Shown: positions 7,764-43,881 of the stretch, piece by piece | How positions within the stretch are numbered: position 1 is the stretch's first letter | How the letters are laid out: the number at the start of each line of letters is the position of its first letter | NCBI RefSeq assembly: GCF_034044635.1 | Contig: NZ_JAXCLX010000001.1 | Span: forward strand, 930,001 to 994,000 | Direction of reading: 5' to 3' | Origin: Dongia rigui | GTDB taxonomy: Bacteria > Pseudomonadota > Alphaproteobacteria > Dongiales > Dongiaceae | DNA length: 64,000 bases | Position numbers and translations under genes: made by a program | Notes under the pieces: model-generated | The model's input: the letters and a program-made list of their open reading frames with translations, nothing else | What the model was told of the DNA's origin: nothing | The model's database searches: none

Positions 7764-9155
7764 CTATGCCCGTGCGGCGGCGTCTTCGCCGATGGCGTAC
7801 CAATCCACTTTCCGGGTCGCCACCATGGTGAGGACCAGGATCAGCAGCAGGCCGATCGTGCCGGAAAGCAGCGCATAACTTTCCATCTGCAACAGCACAT
7901 ACATGTATCCATGAAGTGCCGCGAGGATGAGGCCGGTGAGCAGGCCGATGAAACGCCGGATGGTGGCACCGGCATAGGTGGCGACGATGGCGATATCGAC
8001 CAGGCTGGCGATCAGATAGGCGCCGCCGAACGACATTTGCTCGGCCAATGACAGCAGCAGCAGATAGAAGAGCGAGATCGCCGCGCCGATCAGCAGATAT
8101 TGCACCAGATGCACGCGGTCGCGCTTCAGCAAACCCATGAGGAAGATGGTGCCGAAAGTGAGCGCCACCACCAGCATGCCGTATTTGACGATGCGGTCGG
8201 TCTGCTGGTGCACATCGCCGGGTTCGGTCAGCGCCACGCCGACGACATTCATGCCGGCGGTATCGAGGCTGAACTCGCCGTCGCGCCAGGCCAGCGGAAT
8301 GCCCGTTGCCAGGTGATTGATCGACCAATGGCCGCTGAAACCGTCCTTGGTGATCTCGCGCGACGCGGGCAGCGGCGAACCGATGAAATTGGGATGCGGC
8401 CAATCGCTGGAAAGATCGATCTCGCTCTGGCCACCCAGCGGCCAGATGCTCAATGAATCGCGGCCGTTCAGCGCCAGCTTGATCGAGTAATCGAAGGGCT
8501 TGCCGGCGCCAAGATCAAGGTCGGCGCGGAGGCCCTGCCCGCGCGGATGCTGCGGGAGGAGACCGGCATCGACCTTCTGTGCCTTGCCATCAACACTGAG
8601 ATCGATCGAGCGCAAGGCACGGGCACCCGGCAGCAGAATGGCCAGGCTCGCCTCGTTCCAATAGATCTGGTCCGGCGACACATTCCAGCGCGTAAAATCC
8701 GGCGCCTCGAAATGCCCGTTGATGGTGAGGTCGGCGCCATAAACCAGCACCTCATAGATGCTCTTGTGGCGCTTCTCGACCTTGGTCTTGGCAACGATGT
8801 GATTGGCGGCCGGCAGGAAGGTCGCATAATGCCGGATGCGGGTCAGCAGCTCGGTGCCATCGGCCTTGGGCCGCATTTCCATCGTGTCATAGGGGATTAC
8901 CAGCACGGGGGCACTCACGGCCTGGAGCGGCCCCCATTGTTCGCCCACCTCGGCGATGACATCGAGCTTGCGCTGCGCCCGCTCCTGCACTACGCCCTCC
9001 ACCATGCCGAGCGGGATCATCATCGCCAGGATGAGCAGGCTGAGAAAAAGAATGCGCTTGGCGGCCTCGAAACCGGAGCCGCGCCAGCGCCTGGCCCAGG
9101 GATTGGGGGCCGAGATTGGCTCGGGCGGTTGGTCGGCGAATGTGGAATCAGTCAT
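7764..9155 (-). CDS. creD: Inner-membrane protein of the CreD family
   Basis: 463 aa, typical family length. The N-terminal membrane segment is at about residues 34-55 (ILFLSLLILAMMIPLGMV). A long periplasmic domain follows, with the family-typical DLSVDGKAQ-type segments and the conserved DVHQQTDRIVKYGMLVVALTF. About five C-terminal membrane segments close the protein. In enterobacteria creD is regulated by the CreBC two-component system and linked to envelope integrity and beta-lactam or colicin response; no creBC genes are visible here. The start codon lies directly after a hairpin that contains its ribosome-binding sequence. Confidence 0.9.
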   Translation of the reverse strand: MTDSTFADQPPEPISAPNPWARRWRGSGFEAAKRILFLSLLILAMMIPLGMVEGVVQERAQRKLDVIAEVGEQWGPLQAVSAPVLVIPYDTMEMRPKADGTELLTRIRHYATFLPAANHIVAKTKVEKRHKSIYEVLVYGADLTINGHFEAPDFTRWNVSPDQIYWNEASLAILLPGARALRSIDLSVDGKAQKVDAGLLPQHPRGQGLRADLDLGAGKPFDYSIKLALNGRDSLSIWPLGGQSEIDLSSDWPHPNFIGSPLPASREITKDGFSGHWSINHLATGIPLAWRDGEFSLDTAGMNVVGVALTEPGDVHQQTDRIVKYGMLVVALTFGTIFLMGLLKRDRVHLVQYLLIGAAISLFYLLLLSLAEQMSFGGAYLIASLVDIAIVATYAGATIRRFIGLLTGLILAALHGYMYVLLQMESYALLSGTIGLLLILVLTMVATRKVDWYAIGEDAAARA

Positions 9156-9157
9156 GA

Positions 9158-9186
9158 AAAACCCCTGTCAGTTGCGTGAACAGGGG
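9158..9186 (-). terminator. Hairpin with T-tract just before creD start
   Basis: On the minus strand CCCCTGT (9180-9186) pairs with ACAGGGG (9162-9168) around an 11-nt loop and is followed by TTTTTC, then the creD ATG. It looks like the intrinsic terminator of the upstream tsaD-yciI-EVE operon. AGGGG in its 3' arm is also the only Shine-Dalgarno candidate for creD, so folding would hide it. Confidence 0.6.
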
Positions 9187-9253
9187 CTTTGTCGCTTTGG
9201 ATCCTGTCAGACCGGGGACGGGATCATGGCAAGATCGGGGCCATAGTTGGATT

Positions 9254-9667
9254 TCAGGGCTTCACGCCGCCCATCTTGCAGATGAGCTTCCATTGTGCCG
9301 GCGTGATCGGCATCACGGATAGGCGCGATTGCTTGATGAGGGCGATGTCGGCCAAGGCCGGCTCGGCCTTGATTGCCTGCAAGGTCACAGGCGTCTTCAA
9401 GGGCCGCGACGGCTTCACATCCACCATGCCGAACCTGCCGCTCTCATCGGTGTGGTCCGGGTAGTATTCCTTGGCGATCTCGCAGATGCCGACGATCTCC
9501 AGTCCCTCATTGGAATGATAGAAGAAGGCTTCATCGCCCTTCTTCATCGCCTTGAGGTTGTTGGCGGCCTGGTAATTGCGGACACCGTTCCAGAAGGTCT
9601 TGCCGTCCTTCACCAACTGGTCCCAGGCATATTTGACGGGTTCCGATTTCACCAACCAATGGTTCAT
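9254..9667 (-). CDS. EVE domain-containing protein
   Basis: 137 aa. It is a single EVE domain (PUA-like fold) beginning NHWLVKSEPVKYAWDQL, with the conserved WNGVRNYQAANNL and FYHSNEGLEIVG segments. EVE proteins resemble YTH domains and are thought to recognise modified bases in nucleic acid; the target is unknown. Its start overlaps the yciI-like stop by 4 bp (ATGA), and the operon begins with tsaD, a tRNA-modification gene, which fits a nucleic-acid role. Confidence 0.92.
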   Translation of the reverse strand: MNHWLVKSEPVKYAWDQLVKDGKTFWNGVRNYQAANNLKAMKKGDEAFFYHSNEGLEIVGICEIAKEYYPDHTDESGRFGMVDVKPSRPLKTPVTLQAIKAEPALADIALIKQSRLSVMPITPAQWKLICKMGGVKP

Positions 9668-9954
9668 TTGCCGCTCCGCGGGAAGACATTGCGATAGGGC
9701 TTCACGGTGACCGATTGGAACAAGCCCGCCTTGCTGTAGGGATCGGCGGCGAGGAACGCATCGACCGCGGCCCGGTCGGCAAAATCGACCACCAGCAGGC
9801 TGCCGATCATGGTCTCGCCATCATCGGTCAGGAGCGGGCCGGCCGAGATGAGATGGCTTTCGTGCTTGGTCAGATGTTCGACATGGGCCGGGCGGTTGGC
9901 GAGGCGCGTTTCCACATGGTTGGGCTTATCGAGGCAGAAGATCATGAAGGCCAT
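9664..9954 (-). CDS. YciI-like family protein
   Basis: 96 aa. It is a small ferredoxin-like-fold protein of the YciI family: MAFMIFCLDKPNH at the start, the R-x-x-R-x-x-H segment (TRLANRPAHVEHL), SAGPLLTDDGETMIGSLLV, and a DPYSKAGLF segment near the end. Biochemical activity is poorly defined for most members. It lies 24 bp downstream of tsaD and overlaps the EVE gene. Confidence 0.9.
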   Translation of the reverse strand: MAFMIFCLDKPNHVETRLANRPAHVEHLTKHESHLISAGPLLTDDGETMIGSLLVVDFADRAAVDAFLAADPYSKAGLFQSVTVKPYRNVFPRSGK

Positions 9955-9978
9955 GGCTTTATCCTTATGCGTGAGAGG

Positions 9979-11040
9979 TCAGGCTTTGACGCCAGCGCCG
10001 GCCAAGGCCGGGGCTGCGGAATCGAGTGGCCAGCGCGGCCGGGGGGCGTAATCGAAGCCGCTGCGCTCACCGGCATGGAGGCGTTCGATGCCGGCCCAGG
10101 CGATCATGGCGGCATTGTCGGTACAGAGGCGCGGCGGCGGGGCCACGATGGGAATGCCATGCTTGGCGGCGAGCTTGTGCAAGGCTTCGCGCAGATGCTG
10201 GTTGGCGGCGACACCGCCCGCGACGACCAGCGCGCTTAAAGTCGGATGCGCGGCTTGCGCCAGTTCAAGCGCATGGCGTGTCCGGTCGATGAGGCAGTCG
10301 ACCACGGCCGCCTGGAAGCCGGCGGCCAGATTGGCGCGCGTCGCGTCGTCAAAGGCATGCTCGGCTTTGAGCGCGTCGACGCGCTGGCGCAAGGCCGTCT
10401 TCAGGCCGCTGAAGGAGAAATTGCAATCGGGGCGACCCTTCATCGGCCGCGGCAGGTTACGAAAGGGCGCGGTGGCACCAGCCGCCGCCTTGGCGACCGC
10501 TGGGCCACCGGGGAAGCCGAGACCCATGAGCTTGGCCGCCTTGTCGAAGGCCTCGCCCGCCGCGTCGTCGATGGTGGCCCCCAAGCGCTGATAGCGCCCG
10601 ACACCTTCGACGACGAGCAGCTGGCAATGCCCACCGGAAACGAGCAGCAGCAGATAGGGGAAGGCCACATCGTCGGTGAGGCGCGCGGTCAGCGCATGAC
10701 CTTCCAGATGGTTGACGGCGATGAAGGGCTTCTTGTGGGCAAGGGCGATGGCCTTGGCCATCATCACGCCGACGATAACGCCACCGATGAGCCCGGGACC
10801 GCCGGTCACCGCGACGGCGTCGAGATCGGCGAATTTCATGCCCGCCTGGCGCATGGCAGCGGCAATGGTGTCGTCGAGATGGTCGAGATGGGCGCGGGCG
10901 GCAATTTCTGGGACCACACCCCCGAAAGGGGTGTGTTCGGCAATTTGGGCAAAGATCGTGTCAGCCAGGATGCGCCGGTCGTCGGTCACAATCGCCGCCG
11001 CCGTCTCGTCGCAGGAAGATTCGATACCCAGAACGACCAT
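9979..11040 (-). CDS. tsaD: tRNA N6-adenosine threonylcarbamoyltransferase TsaD
   Basis: 353 aa from ATG at 11040; the open frame continues upstream, but only as the antisense of hemC. It transfers the threonylcarbamoyl group to A37 of ANN-decoding tRNAs. Visible are the start VLGIESSCDETAAAIV, the metal-binding HLEGH (H-x3-H), the nucleotide-binding LLVSGGHCQL, and SGLKTALR. It is first in a minus-strand operon with the YciI and EVE genes and divergent from hemC across 72 bp. Confidence 0.97.
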   Translation of the reverse strand: MVVLGIESSCDETAAAIVTDDRRILADTIFAQIAEHTPFGGVVPEIAARAHLDHLDDTIAAAMRQAGMKFADLDAVAVTGGPGLIGGVIVGVMMAKAIALAHKKPFIAVNHLEGHALTARLTDDVAFPYLLLLVSGGHCQLLVVEGVGRYQRLGATIDDAAGEAFDKAAKLMGLGFPGGPAVAKAAAGATAPFRNLPRPMKGRPDCNFSFSGLKTALRQRVDALKAEHAFDDATRANLAAGFQAAVVDCLIDRTRHALELAQAAHPTLSALVVAGGVAANQHLREALHKLAAKHGIPIVAPPPRLCTDNAAMIAWAGIERLHAGERSGFDYAPRPRWPLDSAAPALAGAGVKA

Positions 11041-11112
11041 TTTGCGCGTTTTCCGCCATTTGCAATCGCCCCGCCGGGCCGCTAGGAAAGGGCCAGCAGA
11101 ATTGAGGTAGTT

Positions 11113-12081
11113 ATGGCCGGTTCGGAACCAGGGATCAACCAGAGCAGCACCCCCAAAAGCGCCGCGGCGGTGCGCATCGGCACGCGCGGGTCGCCCCTGG
11201 CGCTCGCCCAGGCGGAAATGGTGAAAGCCGGCCTGGGTGCCGCCCATGAAGCCCTGGCTGCCCCCGGGGCGGTCGAGATCGTCATCATCAAGACGACCGG
11301 CGACCAGATCCAGGACCGGGCGCTGTCCGAGATCGGCGGCAAGGGCCTCTTTACGAAAGAGATCGAGGAAGCCCTCATCGACGGCCGCATCGATGTGGCC
11401 GTGCATTCGATGAAGGATGTGCCGACACAACTGCCAGATGGGCTGGTCATCGCCTGCCTGCTGGAACGCGAGGATCCGCGCGACGTGCTGATCAGCCGCC
11501 AGGGCAACAGCATCGCGACATTGCCGCAAGGCGCCGTGATCGGCTCGGCGTCGCTCCGCCGCCAGGCGCAGCTGCTGGCGCTGCGGCCGGACCTTAAGGT
11601 CGTGACCTTGCGCGGCAATGTGGGGACGCGGCTCACGAAGCTTGCCAATGGCGATGCCGACGCGACATTGCTGGCCCTGGCCGGATTGAAGCGGCTCGGC
11701 AAGGCGGATGTGGCGACGGCCATCCTCGATATGACGGAAATGTTGCCGGCCGTGGCGCAAGGGGCGATCGGCCTTGAAATCCGCGCGACCGATCGCCGCA
11801 TACAGGATCTGCTGGCGCCGCTGCACCATGCGGCGACCGCGGCGGCCGTCGCGGCCGAGCGGGCGTGCCTGGCGGAACTGGAAGGGTCCTGCCGCACGCC
11901 GATTGCAGCCCATGCCGAGATCGCTGGGGACCAATTGCACCTGACGGCCCTGATCGCGCTGCCAAACGGTGCCACCGTGCATCGTGATGAACGGCAGGGA
12001 TCGGTCCAGGATGCCGAGAAACTCGGGCGCGACTCGGGGCGTGCCCTTAAGTCACTAGCCGGGCCGGACTTCCTGGCTTAA
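11113..12081 (+). CDS. hemC: Hydroxymethylbilane synthase (porphobilinogen deaminase)
   Basis: 322 aa. It polymerises four porphobilinogens into hydroxymethylbilane. Visible are RIGTRGSPLALAQAE at the N-terminus, HSMKDVPT, the GSASLRRQAQL phosphate/substrate region, and the dipyrromethane cofactor cysteine C260 in LEGSCRTPI. The start ATG is preceded by ttgaggtagtt. hemD begins 10 bp after its stop. Confidence 0.97.
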   Translation: MAGSEPGINQSSTPKSAAAVRIGTRGSPLALAQAEMVKAGLGAAHEALAAPGAVEIVIIKTTGDQIQDRALSEIGGKGLFTKEIEEALIDGRIDVAVHSMKDVPTQLPDGLVIACLLEREDPRDVLISRQGNSIATLPQGAVIGSASLRRQAQLLALRPDLKVVTLRGNVGTRLTKLANGDADATLLALAGLKRLGKADVATAILDMTEMLPAVAQGAIGLEIRATDRRIQDLLAPLHHAATAAAVAAERACLAELEGSCRTPIAAHAEIAGDQLHLTALIALPNGATVHRDERQGSVQDAEKLGRDSGRALKSLAGPDFLA

Positions 12082-12091
12082 TTTTCACCCC

Positions 12092-14233
12092 ATGCGCATC
12101 CTCATCACGCGACCCAGGGAAGACGCCGACAGCTTCGCCGCGAGCCTTGCCGCGCGCGGGATCGATGTCGCGGTCGAACCGCTGCTGACGATCCAGCCGG
12201 TGCCCAATCCGCCAATCGATCTGGGCAATGTCCAGGCCGTGCTGTTCACCAGCGCCAATGGCGCCCGCTGCTTTGCGGCAGCCGAGGCGCGCCGCGACAT
12301 CAAGGTTTTCACCGTCGGCGACGGATCCGCAACGACCGCAAGGGCGCTGGGCTTCACCGATATCGAAAGTGCCGCCGGCGACGTGACGAGCCTTGCCACA
12401 CTTGTGGCTGATCGCCTCAAGGCCGGCGACGGCGCCTTGCTGCATGCGGCGGGATCCAGTCTTGCTGGCGATCTCAAAGGCCAATTGGAAGCAGCGGGCT
12501 TCACGGTGCGGCGCGTGACGCTTTATGACGCGGTGCCTGCCAGCGAACTGCCACCCGGCACCTTGATGAATCTGCGCCTGGGCGGGATCGATGCCGTGGC
12601 ATTGTTCTCGCCGCGCTCGGCCCGCACCTTCGTCGATCTCTGGCGCAAGGCCGGTGGCGCCAAGGACGGCTTGAAGGATGTGACGGCGCTGTGCCTCAGT
12701 GCCGCCGTGGCGCGCGAACTCAAGGATCTCGATTGGCGCCGCGTCGAAATCGCGGCGCAACCCGACATCGCGGCCCTGCTGGCCCTGGTCGATGCGGAGC
12801 AGAAAAGGAGAGAGACGGAAATGTCCCATCCAGCGACCGAAGGCAAAGACGGCCGCGCTCCCGGCACGGCGGCGGAAATCGACGAGAAGACCCGCGCTGC
12901 TGCAGCGAGCGATGCCGTGGCCGGCGCCGCCATCGTCGCCGCCATGCCCAAGCCGGCCAGCACCGGCCGGGGCGGCGCCCTTGTCCTTGGCCTCATCGCC
13001 GGCGCCGTCGCCGGGGCCGGCATGGTCGTCGCCGAACCCTATTGGCGCCCCTATCTGCCGATCGCCGCCGTACCGGCAACCGACGCAAATGCGCTCACGG
13101 CCCTGCAGGCCGATGTCGCCGCATTGAAGGACGCGCTGGGCAATCGCGAGGCGGTGGACAGCGAAGCGCGCCACGATATCGAAGCGCTGCAGAGCGAGAT
13201 CACCAGTTGGAAAGACCAGCTGGCCCAGGCGACCGGCAATACGGCCAACACGGCAACGCCCTTGGATCTTGGGCCCATCGAGATGCGCCTGGCGGCGCTC
13301 GAAGACCAGTTAAAGAACCTGCCCGCGCCGGAAGCTGCCGCCGCGGCCAGCACATCCGATGCCACCAGCGCCGCGATGCCGGAAGTGCCGGCCGCCGATG
13401 TCAGCGCGCTCACCGCACGCATCGCCGAGCTCGAAGGTAAATTCGCCGCCCTCGGCGACACGACGACGCGGCTCGATTTCCTCAGCAACGAGACGGCAGC
13501 GCAAAAGGCGCAGATCGAAACGACCAAGGCCAAGCTCGACAATGTCAGCGCGCTCGGCGACCGGCTCACCGCACTCGAGACCCAGGCCAAATCCCTCGGC
13601 GTCGATCTTGGCAACCTGTCGCAGGAGAATGCCGAAGCCGGCTTCAAGCGTCAGCGCGCTGCGGCCTTGGTGCTGACGGTCGGCCAGCTGCGCGCTGCGC
13701 TGGGGAGCGAGGCACCGTTCGCCGCGGAGCTTGCGGCCACCGAGGATCTGGGCCGCGCCGATGCCGATCTGGCGGCAAGGCTTGCCCCCACCCTTGGCGC
13801 CCTGAAGCCCTTTGCCAATGACGGCGCGCCGACCTTGGCGCAACTCCAGGCCGCGTTCCCGGCCGAAAAGATCGCGCAAGGTGCCGCTGCCGACACGGCC
13901 GGTGAATCGGTCGGCATCGAGACGTCCTGGCTGCAGAAGACCTTTGCGCGCCTCTCCGAACTCGTGACCGTGCGGCCGGTGGGCGAGGTCGAAGGGGATG
14001 GTGCGCTCGCACATCTTGCCCGTGGCGAAGCGCGGCTTAGCAGCGGCGACCTTGCCGGCGCCGCTGCCGAGATCAAGGCACTGACCGGCCAGGCCGGCGA
14101 AGCGGCGAAGGTCTGGCTCAGCCAGGCCGAGGCAAGGCTCGCTGTCGATGCGGCGGGGGCCGATCTCGCGGTGATCTCCGCCGAGGCGCTGGCGCCCGCG
14201 GTCGGCGCGCCAGCCGCTGAACCGTCGAACTGA
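12092..14233 (+). CDS. hemD: Uroporphyrinogen-III synthase fused in frame to a Mic60/mitofilin-like membrane protein
   Basis: 713 aa with no stop between two modules. Residues 1 to about 240 are HemD (starts MRILITRPREDA, contains VLFTSANGAR and ALFSPRSARTFV), which cyclises hydroxymethylbilane. From residue 244 the protein reads as a separate gene: a short Ala/Pro-rich cytosolic stretch, one membrane segment at about 294-313 (GGALVLGLIAGAVAGAGMVV), a long coiled-coil region to about 540, and a C-terminal mitofilin-type domain with RGEARLSSGDLAGAAAE. Alphaproteobacterial Mic60 homologues shape inner-membrane invaginations and are normally a separate gene between hemD and hemY. AAGGAG lies just upstream of an in-frame ATG at 12821, so a separate 470-aa Mic60 product is also possible. 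Confidence 0.9.
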   Translation: MRILITRPREDADSFAASLAARGIDVAVEPLLTIQPVPNPPIDLGNVQAVLFTSANGARCFAAAEARRDIKVFTVGDGSATTARALGFTDIESAAGDVTSLATLVADRLKAGDGALLHAAGSSLAGDLKGQLEAAGFTVRRVTLYDAVPASELPPGTLMNLRLGGIDAVALFSPRSARTFVDLWRKAGGAKDGLKDVTALCLSAAVARELKDLDWRRVEIAAQPDIAALLALVDAEQKRRETEMSHPATEGKDGRAPGTAAEIDEKTRAAAASDAVAGAAIVAAMPKPASTGRGGALVLGLIAGAVAGAGMVVAEPYWRPYLPIAAVPATDANALTALQADVAALKDALGNREAVDSEARHDIEALQSEITSWKDQLAQATGNTANTATPLDLGPIEMRLAALEDQLKNLPAPEAAAAASTSDATSAAMPEVPAADVSALTARIAELEGKFAALGDTTTRLDFLSNETAAQKAQIETTKAKLDNVSALGDRLTALETQAKSLGVDLGNLSQENAEAGFKRQRAAALVLTVGQLRAALGSEAPFAAELAATEDLGRADADLAARLAPTLGALKPFANDGAPTLAQLQAAFPAEKIAQGAAADTAGESVGIETSWLQKTFARLSELVTVRPVGEVEGDGALAHLARGEARLSSGDLAGAAAEIKALTGQAGEAAKVWLSQAEARLAVDAAGADLAVISAEALAPAVGAPAAEPSN
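12806..12823 (+). promoter_or_regulatory. Internal ribosome-binding site and ATG inside the hemD-Mic60 frame
   Basis: AAGGAGAGAGA at about 12805-12815 is followed by ATG at 12821-12823, codon 244 of the fused frame. The spacing (about 10 nt from AAGGAG) would support independent translation of the Mic60-like module from the same mRNA. Confidence 0.6.
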
Positions 14234-14246
14234 GAGGCAAGCGGCG

Positions 14247-15779
14247 ATGACCTTCTTCCGCGTCCTCTGGTTCGTCATCAAGCTGGCCATCCTGGTCACG
14301 GTCGCCGTCTACCTTGCCAACCAGCCCGGCAATCTGTCCCTGGTTTGGTTCGGCTATCGCATCGACCTGCACCCGATCGCGCTGTCTCTACTGGGAGTGC
14401 TGGTCTGCTTGGTGCTGCTTTATGCGGTCGGTCGCATCGTCGCGCGCATCATCGCGGTGCCCGGCGATATCGGCGCCATGCGCGGGGCGGCGCGGGAAGC
14501 CAAGGGCTACCAGATCCTGACGCGCGGTCTTGCGGCTGCCGCGGCCGGTGATGCGCGGGAGGCGAAGCGCCTGTCCCTGCAGGCCCGCAAACTGCTCGCC
14601 AAACGGGATGGCGAACCACCCATTACGCGCCTGCTGGCGGCCCAGGCAGCACAGCTTGAAGGCGATGACGTGGCGGCCCACGCCCATTTCAAAGCGCTGG
14701 CCGAGACGCCGGAAACCGCGATCCTCGGCCTGCGCGGACTTGCCCATGCGGCGATGAAAGAAGGCAACGAGACGGAAGCGCGGCGCCTCGCGGAACGCGC
14801 GCTTGCCGCCAACCCGCATGCGCAATGGGCGGCGGAAACGGCTTTGCGCCTGCAGGCCAAGGCGGGCCGCTTCGATTCCGCCGATGAAAGCCTGAAGGCC
14901 CTGGTGCGGGCCGGCGCTATCGACGCCAAGATTGGGCAGCGCCGCCGCGCCGCTCTGCTGACCGAGAAAGCGCGGCAGGCGCTCATCCCGGACGGCACAG
15001 ACGTCTCGGTCGATGTCGCCATGAGTGCGGCGCGCGAAGCCGTGAAGCTTGCCGGTGATTTCGCCCCGGCGCGCTATGTGCTGGTGCGCCTGATGTTGCG
15101 CCAGGGCAAGCGCAAGGAGGCGATGCGCCTCGTCGAGCAGATCTGGGACGATCATCCACACGAAATCCTGGGCGAGCTTTATCTGACCCTGGGCGAGAAC
15201 GAGAAGCCGCTGGAGCGCACACAGCGCCTGGAACGCCTGCAGAAGCAGAACCCGGATCATGTCGAAAGCCATCGCATCCTGGCGGAGGCCGATATCGCCG
15301 CCGAGCTTTGGGGCGAAGCCCGCCGTCACGTCGACCGCCTTGCCGCCATCGAAACCGAGCAGCTGGGTGGCCCGGCCCGCGCCACCTGCCGGGCCCTGGC
15401 TGTGCTCGAGGAGCGAGAGCGGCACGATCCGGTGACGGCGCACCATTGGCTCGACGCCGCCAGTGCTGCACGGCCGGACGCTGCCTGGATTTGCCGCCAG
15501 TGCGGCCATCGCGGCGAGGCCGGCCCGGAAAGCGGTCATTGGCAGCTGGTTTGTCCGCAATGCCAGGCGATCGACAGCCTGGAATGGCGCCATGGCGCCG
15601 CCGCCCGGCTGGGTGGCGCCGCTCTTAGCCTTGCTGCAAAGCCCGCTGGCGGAGCAGAACCTGTTGATCGGACAAGGGAAATCACGATTCTGACCGCCGG
15701 CAGCGACGCTGGGCGAAAGACGGAGGCCGGTGCGAATTCCGATGCCGCCTCTGTTGACGCCGCCCGGCTGATAAACTAG
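14247..15779 (+). CDS. hemY: HemY-like TPR membrane protein with C-terminal zinc ribbon
   Basis: 510 aa (COG3898 type, not protoporphyrinogen oxidase). Two N-terminal membrane segments (about 8-24 and 43-63) enclose the family motif LVWFGYRIDL. TPR-like helices fill most of the rest. Near the C-terminus four cysteines, C416, C419, C436 and C439 (CRQC...CPQC), form a rubredoxin-type zinc ribbon like that closing the TPR protein LapB/YciM. The molecular role of HemY is unsettled; linkage to hemC-hemD suggests heme-pathway scaffolding. The last 60 residues are low-complexity. The gene follows the fused hemD by 13 bp. Confidence 0.88.
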   Translation: MTFFRVLWFVIKLAILVTVAVYLANQPGNLSLVWFGYRIDLHPIALSLLGVLVCLVLLYAVGRIVARIIAVPGDIGAMRGAAREAKGYQILTRGLAAAAAGDAREAKRLSLQARKLLAKRDGEPPITRLLAAQAAQLEGDDVAAHAHFKALAETPETAILGLRGLAHAAMKEGNETEARRLAERALAANPHAQWAAETALRLQAKAGRFDSADESLKALVRAGAIDAKIGQRRRAALLTEKARQALIPDGTDVSVDVAMSAAREAVKLAGDFAPARYVLVRLMLRQGKRKEAMRLVEQIWDDHPHEILGELYLTLGENEKPLERTQRLERLQKQNPDHVESHRILAEADIAAELWGEARRHVDRLAAIETEQLGGPARATCRALAVLEERERHDPVTAHHWLDAASAARPDAAWICRQCGHRGEAGPESGHWQLVCPQCQAIDSLEWRHGAAARLGGAALSLAAKPAGGAEPVDRTREITILTAGSDAGRKTEAGANSDAASVDAARLIN

Positions 15780-15807: not shown

Positions 15808-15882
<75 letters not shown>

Positions 15883-16577: not shown

Positions 16578-17099
16578 ATGACGGCGTGGCTGGATATCAA
16601 GCGATCCCAATCGGCGCGGGTGAGGGAACTTGATGCTTGGTGGCGCAAGAACGCCCTCGACCGCCCATTGCCCGACAGGGCCGATCTCGATCCGGCCGCC
16701 ATTCCCCTCCTGCTGCCCTATATCCTCATCTCGGAAGTCGAGCGCCCTTTCCGGGTGCGCTATCGGTTGGTCGGCACCGAAGTGGTGCATGTGACCGGCC
16801 TCAACTTCACCGGCCACTATCTCGACCAGCTCATTCCGCCCGGCGAGGAAGAAAGCTGGCTGGCGCATTACCGGCATTGCTTCGAGACGGCGCAGCCAGT
16901 CTATGGACTGAGCACCGTGAAGACGCTGGTCGGCGGATCCTTCAGCTATGAATATGGCATCTGGCCGCTCACGAAAGGTGGGCCTGAGGTCAGCCAGTTC
17001 ATTGCCTTGGAAGATTACGGCCCCCATCGCGCCAGGTCGCGGGAATTGCTCGATCAAGCCAAGCTGTGGCGCCGCGCTGATCCCTCACCCGCCGATTGA
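16578..17099 (+). CDS. PAS domain protein (PAS_5/DUF1457-like)
   Basis: 173 aa and essentially one PAS-like domain. Family-typical segments are LDAWWRKNALDRPLPDRADLDP near the N-terminus, LLLPYILISEVE, RYRLVGTEVV, TGLNFTGHYLDQL, and a closing beta strand (VSQFIALEDYG). PAS_5-like proteins are numerous in Rhodospirillales and usually consist of this domain alone; ligand and output are unknown. It faces a second, divergent family member at 17167-17655. No other signalling domain is attached. Confidence 0.8.
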   Translation: MTAWLDIKRSQSARVRELDAWWRKNALDRPLPDRADLDPAAIPLLLPYILISEVERPFRVRYRLVGTEVVHVTGLNFTGHYLDQLIPPGEEESWLAHYRHCFETAQPVYGLSTVKTLVGGSFSYEYGIWPLTKGGPEVSQFIALEDYGPHRARSRELLDQAKLWRRADPSPAD

Positions 17100-17166: not shown

Positions 17167-17655
17167 TTATCTTGCAGACTTGGCGGCCATGGCGGCACTG
17201 CCGATGAAGTCGACGGCGAACAGCAACATGTCGACCGACTGGCCATCAGCGGCAAGCGGCAGGATCACACTCTCGACAAAGAGGAAATCCTTGTGCGGGC
17301 CGATATAAGGCGGCCGCGCCAGCAATGGACGCCGCTCTTTCAACACGCGAAGATTATTGTCCCAGACGGTCGAACCCTGGCGTTGGAAGGGAATGTCGCT
17401 CAGATAGCGGCCGGTCCAGTCCTCGGCCATGTGCCGGCGCAGGGCGGAGCCCACCAGGCGGTAGCGAAAATCGAGCGGATCGTGCTGCACATCCATCAGC
17501 ATCAGATGCGGTAGCAGGCGCGGAACATCGAGGACGGGATCGAGGTCGCGACGCGCCGGCAACATGTCCGGGTCGCCGAGCGCACGCTGCTTGCCAAGCC
17601 AGTAGTCATAGCCGGCCAGGACGCTCGCGGATCTTATGTCACCCCGATCGAACAT
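17167..17655 (-). CDS. PAS domain protein (PAS_5/DUF1457-like), second copy
   Basis: 162 aa with the same architecture as the gene at 16578-17099: YDYWLGKQRALGDPDMLPARRDLDP, VPRLLPHLMLMDV, FRYRLVGSALRRHM, DWTGRYLSDI, and a terminal strand MLLFAVDFIG. Identity with the neighbour is low outside the motifs, so this is an old duplication. The two genes converge with 67 bp between stops. Its start is 8 bp before the ligA stop on the same strand, so it could be the last gene of the ligA transcript. Confidence 0.8.
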   Translation of the reverse strand: MFDRGDIRSASVLAGYDYWLGKQRALGDPDMLPARRDLDPVLDVPRLLPHLMLMDVQHDPLDFRYRLVGSALRRHMAEDWTGRYLSDIPFQRQGSTVWDNNLRVLKERRPLLARPPYIGPHKDFLFVESVILPLAADGQSVDMLLFAVDFIGSAAMAAKSAR

Positions 17656-43410: not shown

Positions 43411-43434
43411 CGGCTCACGGACAGAAGCAAAAGC

Positions 43435-43881
43435 GCCAGACGGCCTGTAAGCCGGGTTCTGTCCGGGGCCGCAGCCGCGCACGATATGGTGTTGCCACCA
43501 TCACTCACGCGCGTTCGGCCCCTGGATGGCCATTCATCTGGGACGCCCGTTACCGGACGCCTCGCGCGACCTACCCGAGGATCGATGCGGAAAAGCACCT
43601 GTCCGAGTTGCCCCAGTTTCCTGGTTGGCTCAGACGCGTCCTCCTATCTGGTCTTGCTCCCGGTGGGGTTTGCCGTGCCGCTTCCGTTGCCGGTCGCGCG
43701 GTGCGCTCTTACCGCACCGTTTCACCCTTGCCGCGCCCGAGGGCGAGGCGGTCTCTTCTCTGTGGCACTGTCCCTAGGCTTGACGCCCGCCGGACGTTAT
43801 CCGGCACCGTTTTTCCGTGGAGCCCGGACTTTCCTCCCTCGTCCCATCGCTGGGGCAAGAGCGGCCATCCGGCCATCTGGC
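43435..43881 (-). ncRNA. rnpB: RNase P RNA (class A)
   Basis: About 447 nt. The 5' P1 strand GCCAGATGGCC (43871-43881) pairs with the 3' strand GGCCGTCTGGC (43435-43445, one G-U pair). Universal segments are GAGGAAAGTCCGGGCTCC near the 5' end, a GGCAAACCCCACC segment in the middle, and CAGAACCCGGCTTACAGGCC at the 3' end. It is the ribozyme subunit that matures tRNA 5' ends. The ends are fixed only to a few bases. It begins 33 bp after the purC stop on the same strand. No protein gene overlaps convincingly. Confidence 0.96.

Follow-up and report, generated by a model that had tools for sequence, protein, structure and literature searches.

Bacterial genes with two in-frame starts that give two proteoforms are a known kind of gene, and the core MICOS protein of mitochondria descends from bacterial Mic60. 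An operon of the order hemC-hemD-IMMP(mitofilin)-hemY, lying head to head with a tsaD-gpsA-yciI-EVE unit, has been described in Alphaproteobacteria (PMC7641849); in its accessible text HemD and IMMP are treated as separate genes and neither a fusion nor an inner start is mentioned. Alphaproteobacterial Mic60 proteins, as presented in the accessible parts of PMC12631773, PMC12136173 and PMC9764997, stand alone and consist of a membrane helix, a coiled-coil-like middle and a C-terminal mitofilin match. HemD is also found in the HemD-HemX fusion (NCBIfam NF005411 / PRK06975), in which it is joined to a single-pass membrane protein of the neighbouring gene. The locus of Dongia rigui studied here resembles each of these systems in part. 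Its window, the whole stretch of 64,000 nucleotides that was analysed, contained the following features at this locus.

9979 to 11085, minus strand: tsaD, head to head with hemC (PF00814, 308.4 bits)
11113 to 12081, plus strand: hemC, hydroxymethylbilane synthase (TIGR00212, 364.6 bits, cut-off 164; PF01379)
12092 to 14233, plus strand: HemD-Mic60 fusion ORF, 713 codons, calculated mass 72.6 kDa
12092 to 12796, plus strand: HemD domain (uroporphyrinogen-III synthase), residues 1-235 (PF02602; phmmer match to 3mw8_A)
12805 to 12810, plus strand: AAGGAG, proposed internal ribosome-binding sequence, with codons 239-240 reading AGG-AGA
12821 to 12823, plus strand: ATG at codon 244, where free Mic60 is proposed to start (Met conservation, SD duplex energy)
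12821 to 14233, plus strand: Mic60-like part, 470 codons from codon 244, calculated mass 47.2 kDa
12977 to 13033, plus strand: membrane-spanning helix predicted at residues 296-314 (hydropathy of 2.31 across 19 residues)
13562 to 14155, plus strand: mitofilin-domain match, residues 491-688 (PF09731, below cut-off alone; family profile to 7pv1)
14247 to 15779, plus strand: HemY-like TPR protein, downstream operon gene (PF07219 HemY_N, 74.2 bits, cut-off 31)

The gene order and the head-to-head partner unit were like those in the accessible text of PMC7641849, except that gpsA was missing. Upstream in the operon, hemC ended 10 bases ahead of the fusion ORF. On the minus strand (7764-11085), the unit ran from tsaD through yciI and an EVE-domain gene to creD, with gpsA absent; the only over-cut-off match to the glycerol-3-phosphate dehydrogenase N-domain in the host genome was at G000:C1:1803299-1803751. 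The last operon gene also differed, since the 'HemY' of the same text is called coproporphyrinogen oxidase whereas the Dongia gene encodes a HemY_N/TPR protein. The C-terminal end of this protein was rich in CxxC and gave weak LapB-kind zinc-ribbon matches (Zn_ribbon_LapB at E 0.03 and the NCBIfam LapB model at E 5e-7, the first below and the second far below its cut-off), which suggests a HemY-LapB-like hybrid layout. Further downstream, two convergent neighbouring genes (16578-17096, plus strand; 17167-17655, minus strand) encoded a pair of PAS_5 proteins. An Rfam scan of the window at the gathering threshold found no RNA at the HemD-Mic60 junction; its only matches were an ordinary RNase P RNA (43432-43880, minus strand) and an ordinary tRNA (15808-15879, plus strand).

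The first-pass annotation of this DNA had proposed one frame of 713 codons without a stop, encoding HemD and a mitofilin-type protein, and this frame was found as described, with HemD first, then a short linker and a single predicted membrane helix, and last the Mic60/mitofilin-like part. Residues 14-230 matched HEM4/HemD (PF02602) with 135.9 bits at a cut-off of 27.5. The cut-offs of the HemD equivalog models of NCBIfam were not reached, the best being NF006621 with 114.3 bits against 223, and phmmer with the HemD half found the uroporphyrinogen-III synthase 3mw8_A in the PDB (E 1.2e-4). The host genome of 4.66 Mb contained one HemD match and one mitofilin match, both in the fusion ORF. The N-terminal half, the sole HemD match of the genome and in an operon with hemC, is the putative maker of uroporphyrinogen III.

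The second half was assigned less directly. Residues 491-688 matched Mitofilin (PF09731) with 20.2 bits, or 25.4 in the genome search, and did not reach the cut-off of 27.4. Among 60 aligned relatives, one per family and state after one long member (L152) was excluded from 61, PF09731 was matched by 51 at E of 0.01 or below, the best at 7.2e-31. A profile of these 60 relatives (A1) ranked 7pv1, a Mic60-Mic19 crystal construct, first of 330 PDB matches (E 9.7e-12), the aligned part being positions 346-408 of 429 in the profile, close to its C-terminal end. The remaining PDB matches were mostly coiled coils, as a coiled-coil middle would predict. The mitofilin relationship of the second half is seen at the family level, and the Dongia protein alone stays below the cut-off. 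The hydropathy peak at residues 296-314 corresponds to residues 52-70 of the Mic60 part, as for an N-terminal membrane helix, and the arrangement of helix, putative coiled-coil-like middle and mitofilin match resembled that of the alphaproteobacterial Mic60 proteins cited above; the difference is that in Dongia the only copy follows an enzyme in the same frame. HemX was also considered as the second half, since the plan of the HemD-HemX fusion is alike, and was found to be unsupported: the matches listed for the Dongia protein down to E 1 included no HemX family, the A1 profile finds MIC60-MIC19, and the Dongia protein scored 17.6 bits against NF005411 (cut-off 414), covering HemD residues 1-40 only, with a second half of the mitofilin kind. 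An AlphaFold2 model of the whole fusion, built with 5 sequences, had a mean pLDDT of 44.9 and was set aside.

A sequencing or assembly error that deleted a stop codon could in principle produce such a frame. We searched 17 Dongiaceae genomes and obtained a match in 16, all of them fused in one frame; the 17th, 68% complete, gave no match. These are separate assemblies, and error as the cause of the fusion was rejected, its probability being negligible. A conserved stop before codon 244, named beforehand as the result that would speak against the fusion, was looked for in the relatives and none was seen. The statement that relatives usually have two genes held for the sampled class but failed for Dongiaceae. 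Among the matches listed, which were ranked by likeness to Dongia HemD, 138 alphaproteobacterial loci comprised 56 fused, 79 split and 3 without a Mic60 match; outside Dongiaceae the counts were 40, 79 and 3. States were called with HemD and Mic60 profiles on stop-to-stop frames in the stretches around HemD. The class sample gave a match in 309 of 387 genomes, 22 listed genomes were outside this sample, some because their match was at a contig end, and the 138-locus set takes in G028, G030 and L039. Two of the three loci without a Mic60 match (L016, L044) were near contig ends. Fusions occurred in 23 of the 56 families sampled, that is in 22 besides Dongiaceae, and both states were present in 7 families. 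As judged from these loci, the HemD-Mic60 fusion is a recurrent variant within Alphaproteobacteria. One single-contig genome (G044; L020, L074) had three HemD-Mic60 copies, two head to head at the contig start and one near its end, possibly because the terminus was duplicated or the assembly is faulty.

Recurrence could be explained by a benefit of the fusion, or by tight gene packing with chance loss of the hemD stop, tolerated as a near-neutral by-product with no role in placing HemD. HemD and Mic60 adjoined in 135 of the 138 loci, and where the two were split, the start of mic60 often overlapped or almost touched the hemD stop, both as expected of a by-product. So is the repeated change of state: on the tree of these 135 loci at least 19 changes were needed, or 14 with branches below 80 collapsed and 5 with those below 95 collapsed, for a quick tree of two proteins in which 48 of 132 inner branches had support below 80. 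Parsimony on this tree did not give the direction of the changes. Stops are few in a G+C-rich genome, so an open junction by itself speaks only weakly for selection on the fusion. Against a by-product, the fusion was kept in every matched Dongiaceae genome and recurred in 22 other families. Such retention and recurrence fit a benefit or at least a low cost, and do not decide between the two. We regard the by-product explanation as a serious contender, although with somewhat less than an even chance. It concerns the benefit of the fusion and not its products, and overlaps with both accounts of the products given below.

The first-pass annotation had also placed an inner ATG with a ribosome-binding sequence at codon 244, and both elements were located. 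We consider the most probable state of the locus, with a probability of about 0.6, to be a fusion plus a working inner start, such that one mRNA would give both the HemD-Mic60 fusion and free Mic60. The alternative is an obligate HemD-Mic60 chain, in which the inner AUG and its ribosome-binding sequence are relics of the old mic60 start. A point against use of the inner start is that the Dongia gap between AAGGAG and ATG, at 10 bases, was longer than in several other fused loci (5 in G009, G013 and G015; likewise 5 for genus g4). Codon 244 had an SD duplex of -8.0 kcal/mol (synonymous-recoding p 0.02; duplex energies here and below were scored with anti-Shine-Dalgarno letters not taken from the host 16S RNA), and no second AGA besides codon 240 occurred among the 161 Arg codons in the 7 genes counted. 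In the alignment of five Dongia-genus proteins Met244 was invariant (5/5) within a poorly conserved linker. Glu236, Gln237, Arg239 and Arg240, whose codons carry the ribosome-binding sequence, were likewise invariant (5/5), and the linker that follows them varied. An AUG 9 or 10 codons past HemD was present in 10 of the 16 Dongiaceae members (6 of 7 of the Dongia genus, each of the 3 genus g4 genomes with a match, and G012) and was lacking in the other 6. Retention of this signal within the Dongia clade, at 57-84% protein identity and in excess of the synonymous-recoding prediction, argues against a mere relic.

The same signal was found across the fusions. Met made up 3.3% of residues at the junction outside Dongiaceae and 2.8% inside, compared with 0.8-1.2% in most other parts of the protein; the Dongiaceae linker beyond the junction had 2.8% too. 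In the 56 fused loci there were 47 junction Mets, located in 35 loci. Their mean SD duplex was -5.6 kcal/mol. The 372 Mets elsewhere averaged -2.6 (Mann-Whitney p 3e-13) and synonymous recodings of the junction Mets -3.9 (Wilcoxon p 9e-7), while those 372 showed no excess over synonymous recoding. An ATG with a duplex of -6 or lower occurred in 24 of the 56 junctions when 0.9 were expected from control windows of the same width, and when GTG and TTG were also allowed, 30 junctions qualified against 6.0 expected. Counted by locus against 200 synonymous simulations, 33 loci had the signal at -5 (mean 18.3, maximum 24) and 24 at -6 (mean 11.3, maximum 17). Because related sequences are not independent, the excess was also counted by family, where it was marginal: 14 of 23 families at -5 (mean 10.4, maximum 14 in 200 simulations) and 11 at -6 (mean 7.4, maximum 11). 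Local folding was weaker at junction Mets, -8.2 compared with -14.7 kcal/mol (47 and 369 Mets), and part of this may be explained by their lower surrounding G+C, 0.58 compared with 0.68 for the others. By these counts the inner start signal after HemD is more than chance, and a conserved in-frame start with a ribosome-binding sequence, as predicted for internal initiation, is present, if marginally so by family.

The start was not universal. Four of the 56 fused loci, including the Dongiaceae member G011, lacked ATG, GTG and TTG alike in the stretch from HemD to the helix, 12 had no ATG there, and within the Dongia genus itself the ATG was lost in G005. These losses are what an obligate chain would predict. 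Free Mic60 should be dispensable in the four loci whose linker has no start codon, and since the inner start was lost in some fusions, some loci probably give two products and others the fusion alone. The inner start signal as first proposed had comparative support in the genus and in the junctions as a group, and did not extend to every fusion. In three fused loci, L088 (G321), L111 (G255) and L172 (G051), ATG was absent near the junction and a TTG or GTG was kept, with strong ribosome-binding sequences of -11.3, -10.9 and -8.0 kcal/mol, respectively. For Dongia we consider a fusion-only product unlikely.

Another possibility is cleavage of the linker after synthesis, so that the two proteins work apart and fusion serves only as a means to equal amounts. 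Many loci had a long and variable linker with much Ala, Pro and Glu, and fused and split states interchange, so that physical linkage seems non-essential. No conserved cleavage motif was found in the 5-sequence alignment of the Dongia genus, and we hold cleavage to be quite improbable. Release of free HemD by a frameshift near the junction was also considered and found unlikely: the other two frames are open from the HemD end to 13125 and 13438, and a slip near the junction would not soon release HemD.

Fusion together with internal initiation could operate as follows. The hemD stop codon would have been lost, so that hemD reads in frame into mic60, and initiation at hemD would yield the 72.6 kDa protein. 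The former ribosome-binding sequence and AUG of mic60 would have been retained in frame at codon 244, and because this start signal is retained, the same mRNA most likely yields free Mic60 of 47.2 kDa too; the two calculated masses agree with the first estimates of near 72 and 47 kDa. Compared with known internal-start genes, the use of one frame with two starts is alike, with the difference that codon 244 of Dongia apparently began as the start of a gene of its own and was left inside the frame by the fusion. HemD would lie in the cytoplasm, tethered by the linker to the single membrane helix, with the Mic60 coiled coil and mitofilin part in the periplasm; this placement of HemD on the cytoplasmic membrane face by the Mic60 helix is predicted from the topology of Mic60 in general. 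Since the fusion ORF is the sole HemD match in the genome, HemD should exist only as a membrane-anchored fusion. There is no second match to HemD or mitofilin and the other frames have no early stop, so every ribosome that makes HemD would continue into Mic60. All HemD would then be at the membrane, in one chain with a subset of Mic60, and the resulting mixture of tethered and free Mic60 molecules could assemble together. Such a mixture may serve heme supply at respiratory membranes, equal dosage, or neither. The membrane invaginations at which the first-pass annotation placed uroporphyrinogen III synthesis are putative in this organism. We infer from the sequence the use of the inner start, the topology and any benefit of a membrane-placed HemD, and a link between heme supply and membrane shape likewise.

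The operon (PMC7641849) and the Mic60 homology (PMC7641849, PMC12631773, PMC12136173, PMC9764997) are already in print, as far as the accessible text of these papers goes, and the recurrent HemD-Mic60 fusion appears to be new. No description of such a fusion was found in the open literature; the main papers on bacterial Mic60 lay outside this search and may describe one. The accessible parts of the same four papers offered no explanation of why mic60 is among heme genes. As a speculation that we consider rather doubtful, Alphaproteobacteria may have repeatedly tied their sole HemD to the cristae-shaping Mic60, with a dual-product transitional form and a fusion-only end form; Mic60 would then act as a scaffold and bring tetrapyrrole synthesis to respiratory membrane domains, a link between heme and the inner membrane that would predate mitochondria. 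Fusions that keep the inner start and fusions that lack it together form a natural series from two genes to one protein by way of a dual-product stage. The recurrent covalent fusion makes the link between heme and Mic60 directly testable, namely whether HemD is at particular membrane sites and whether the enzyme is needed or merely tolerated by Mic60.
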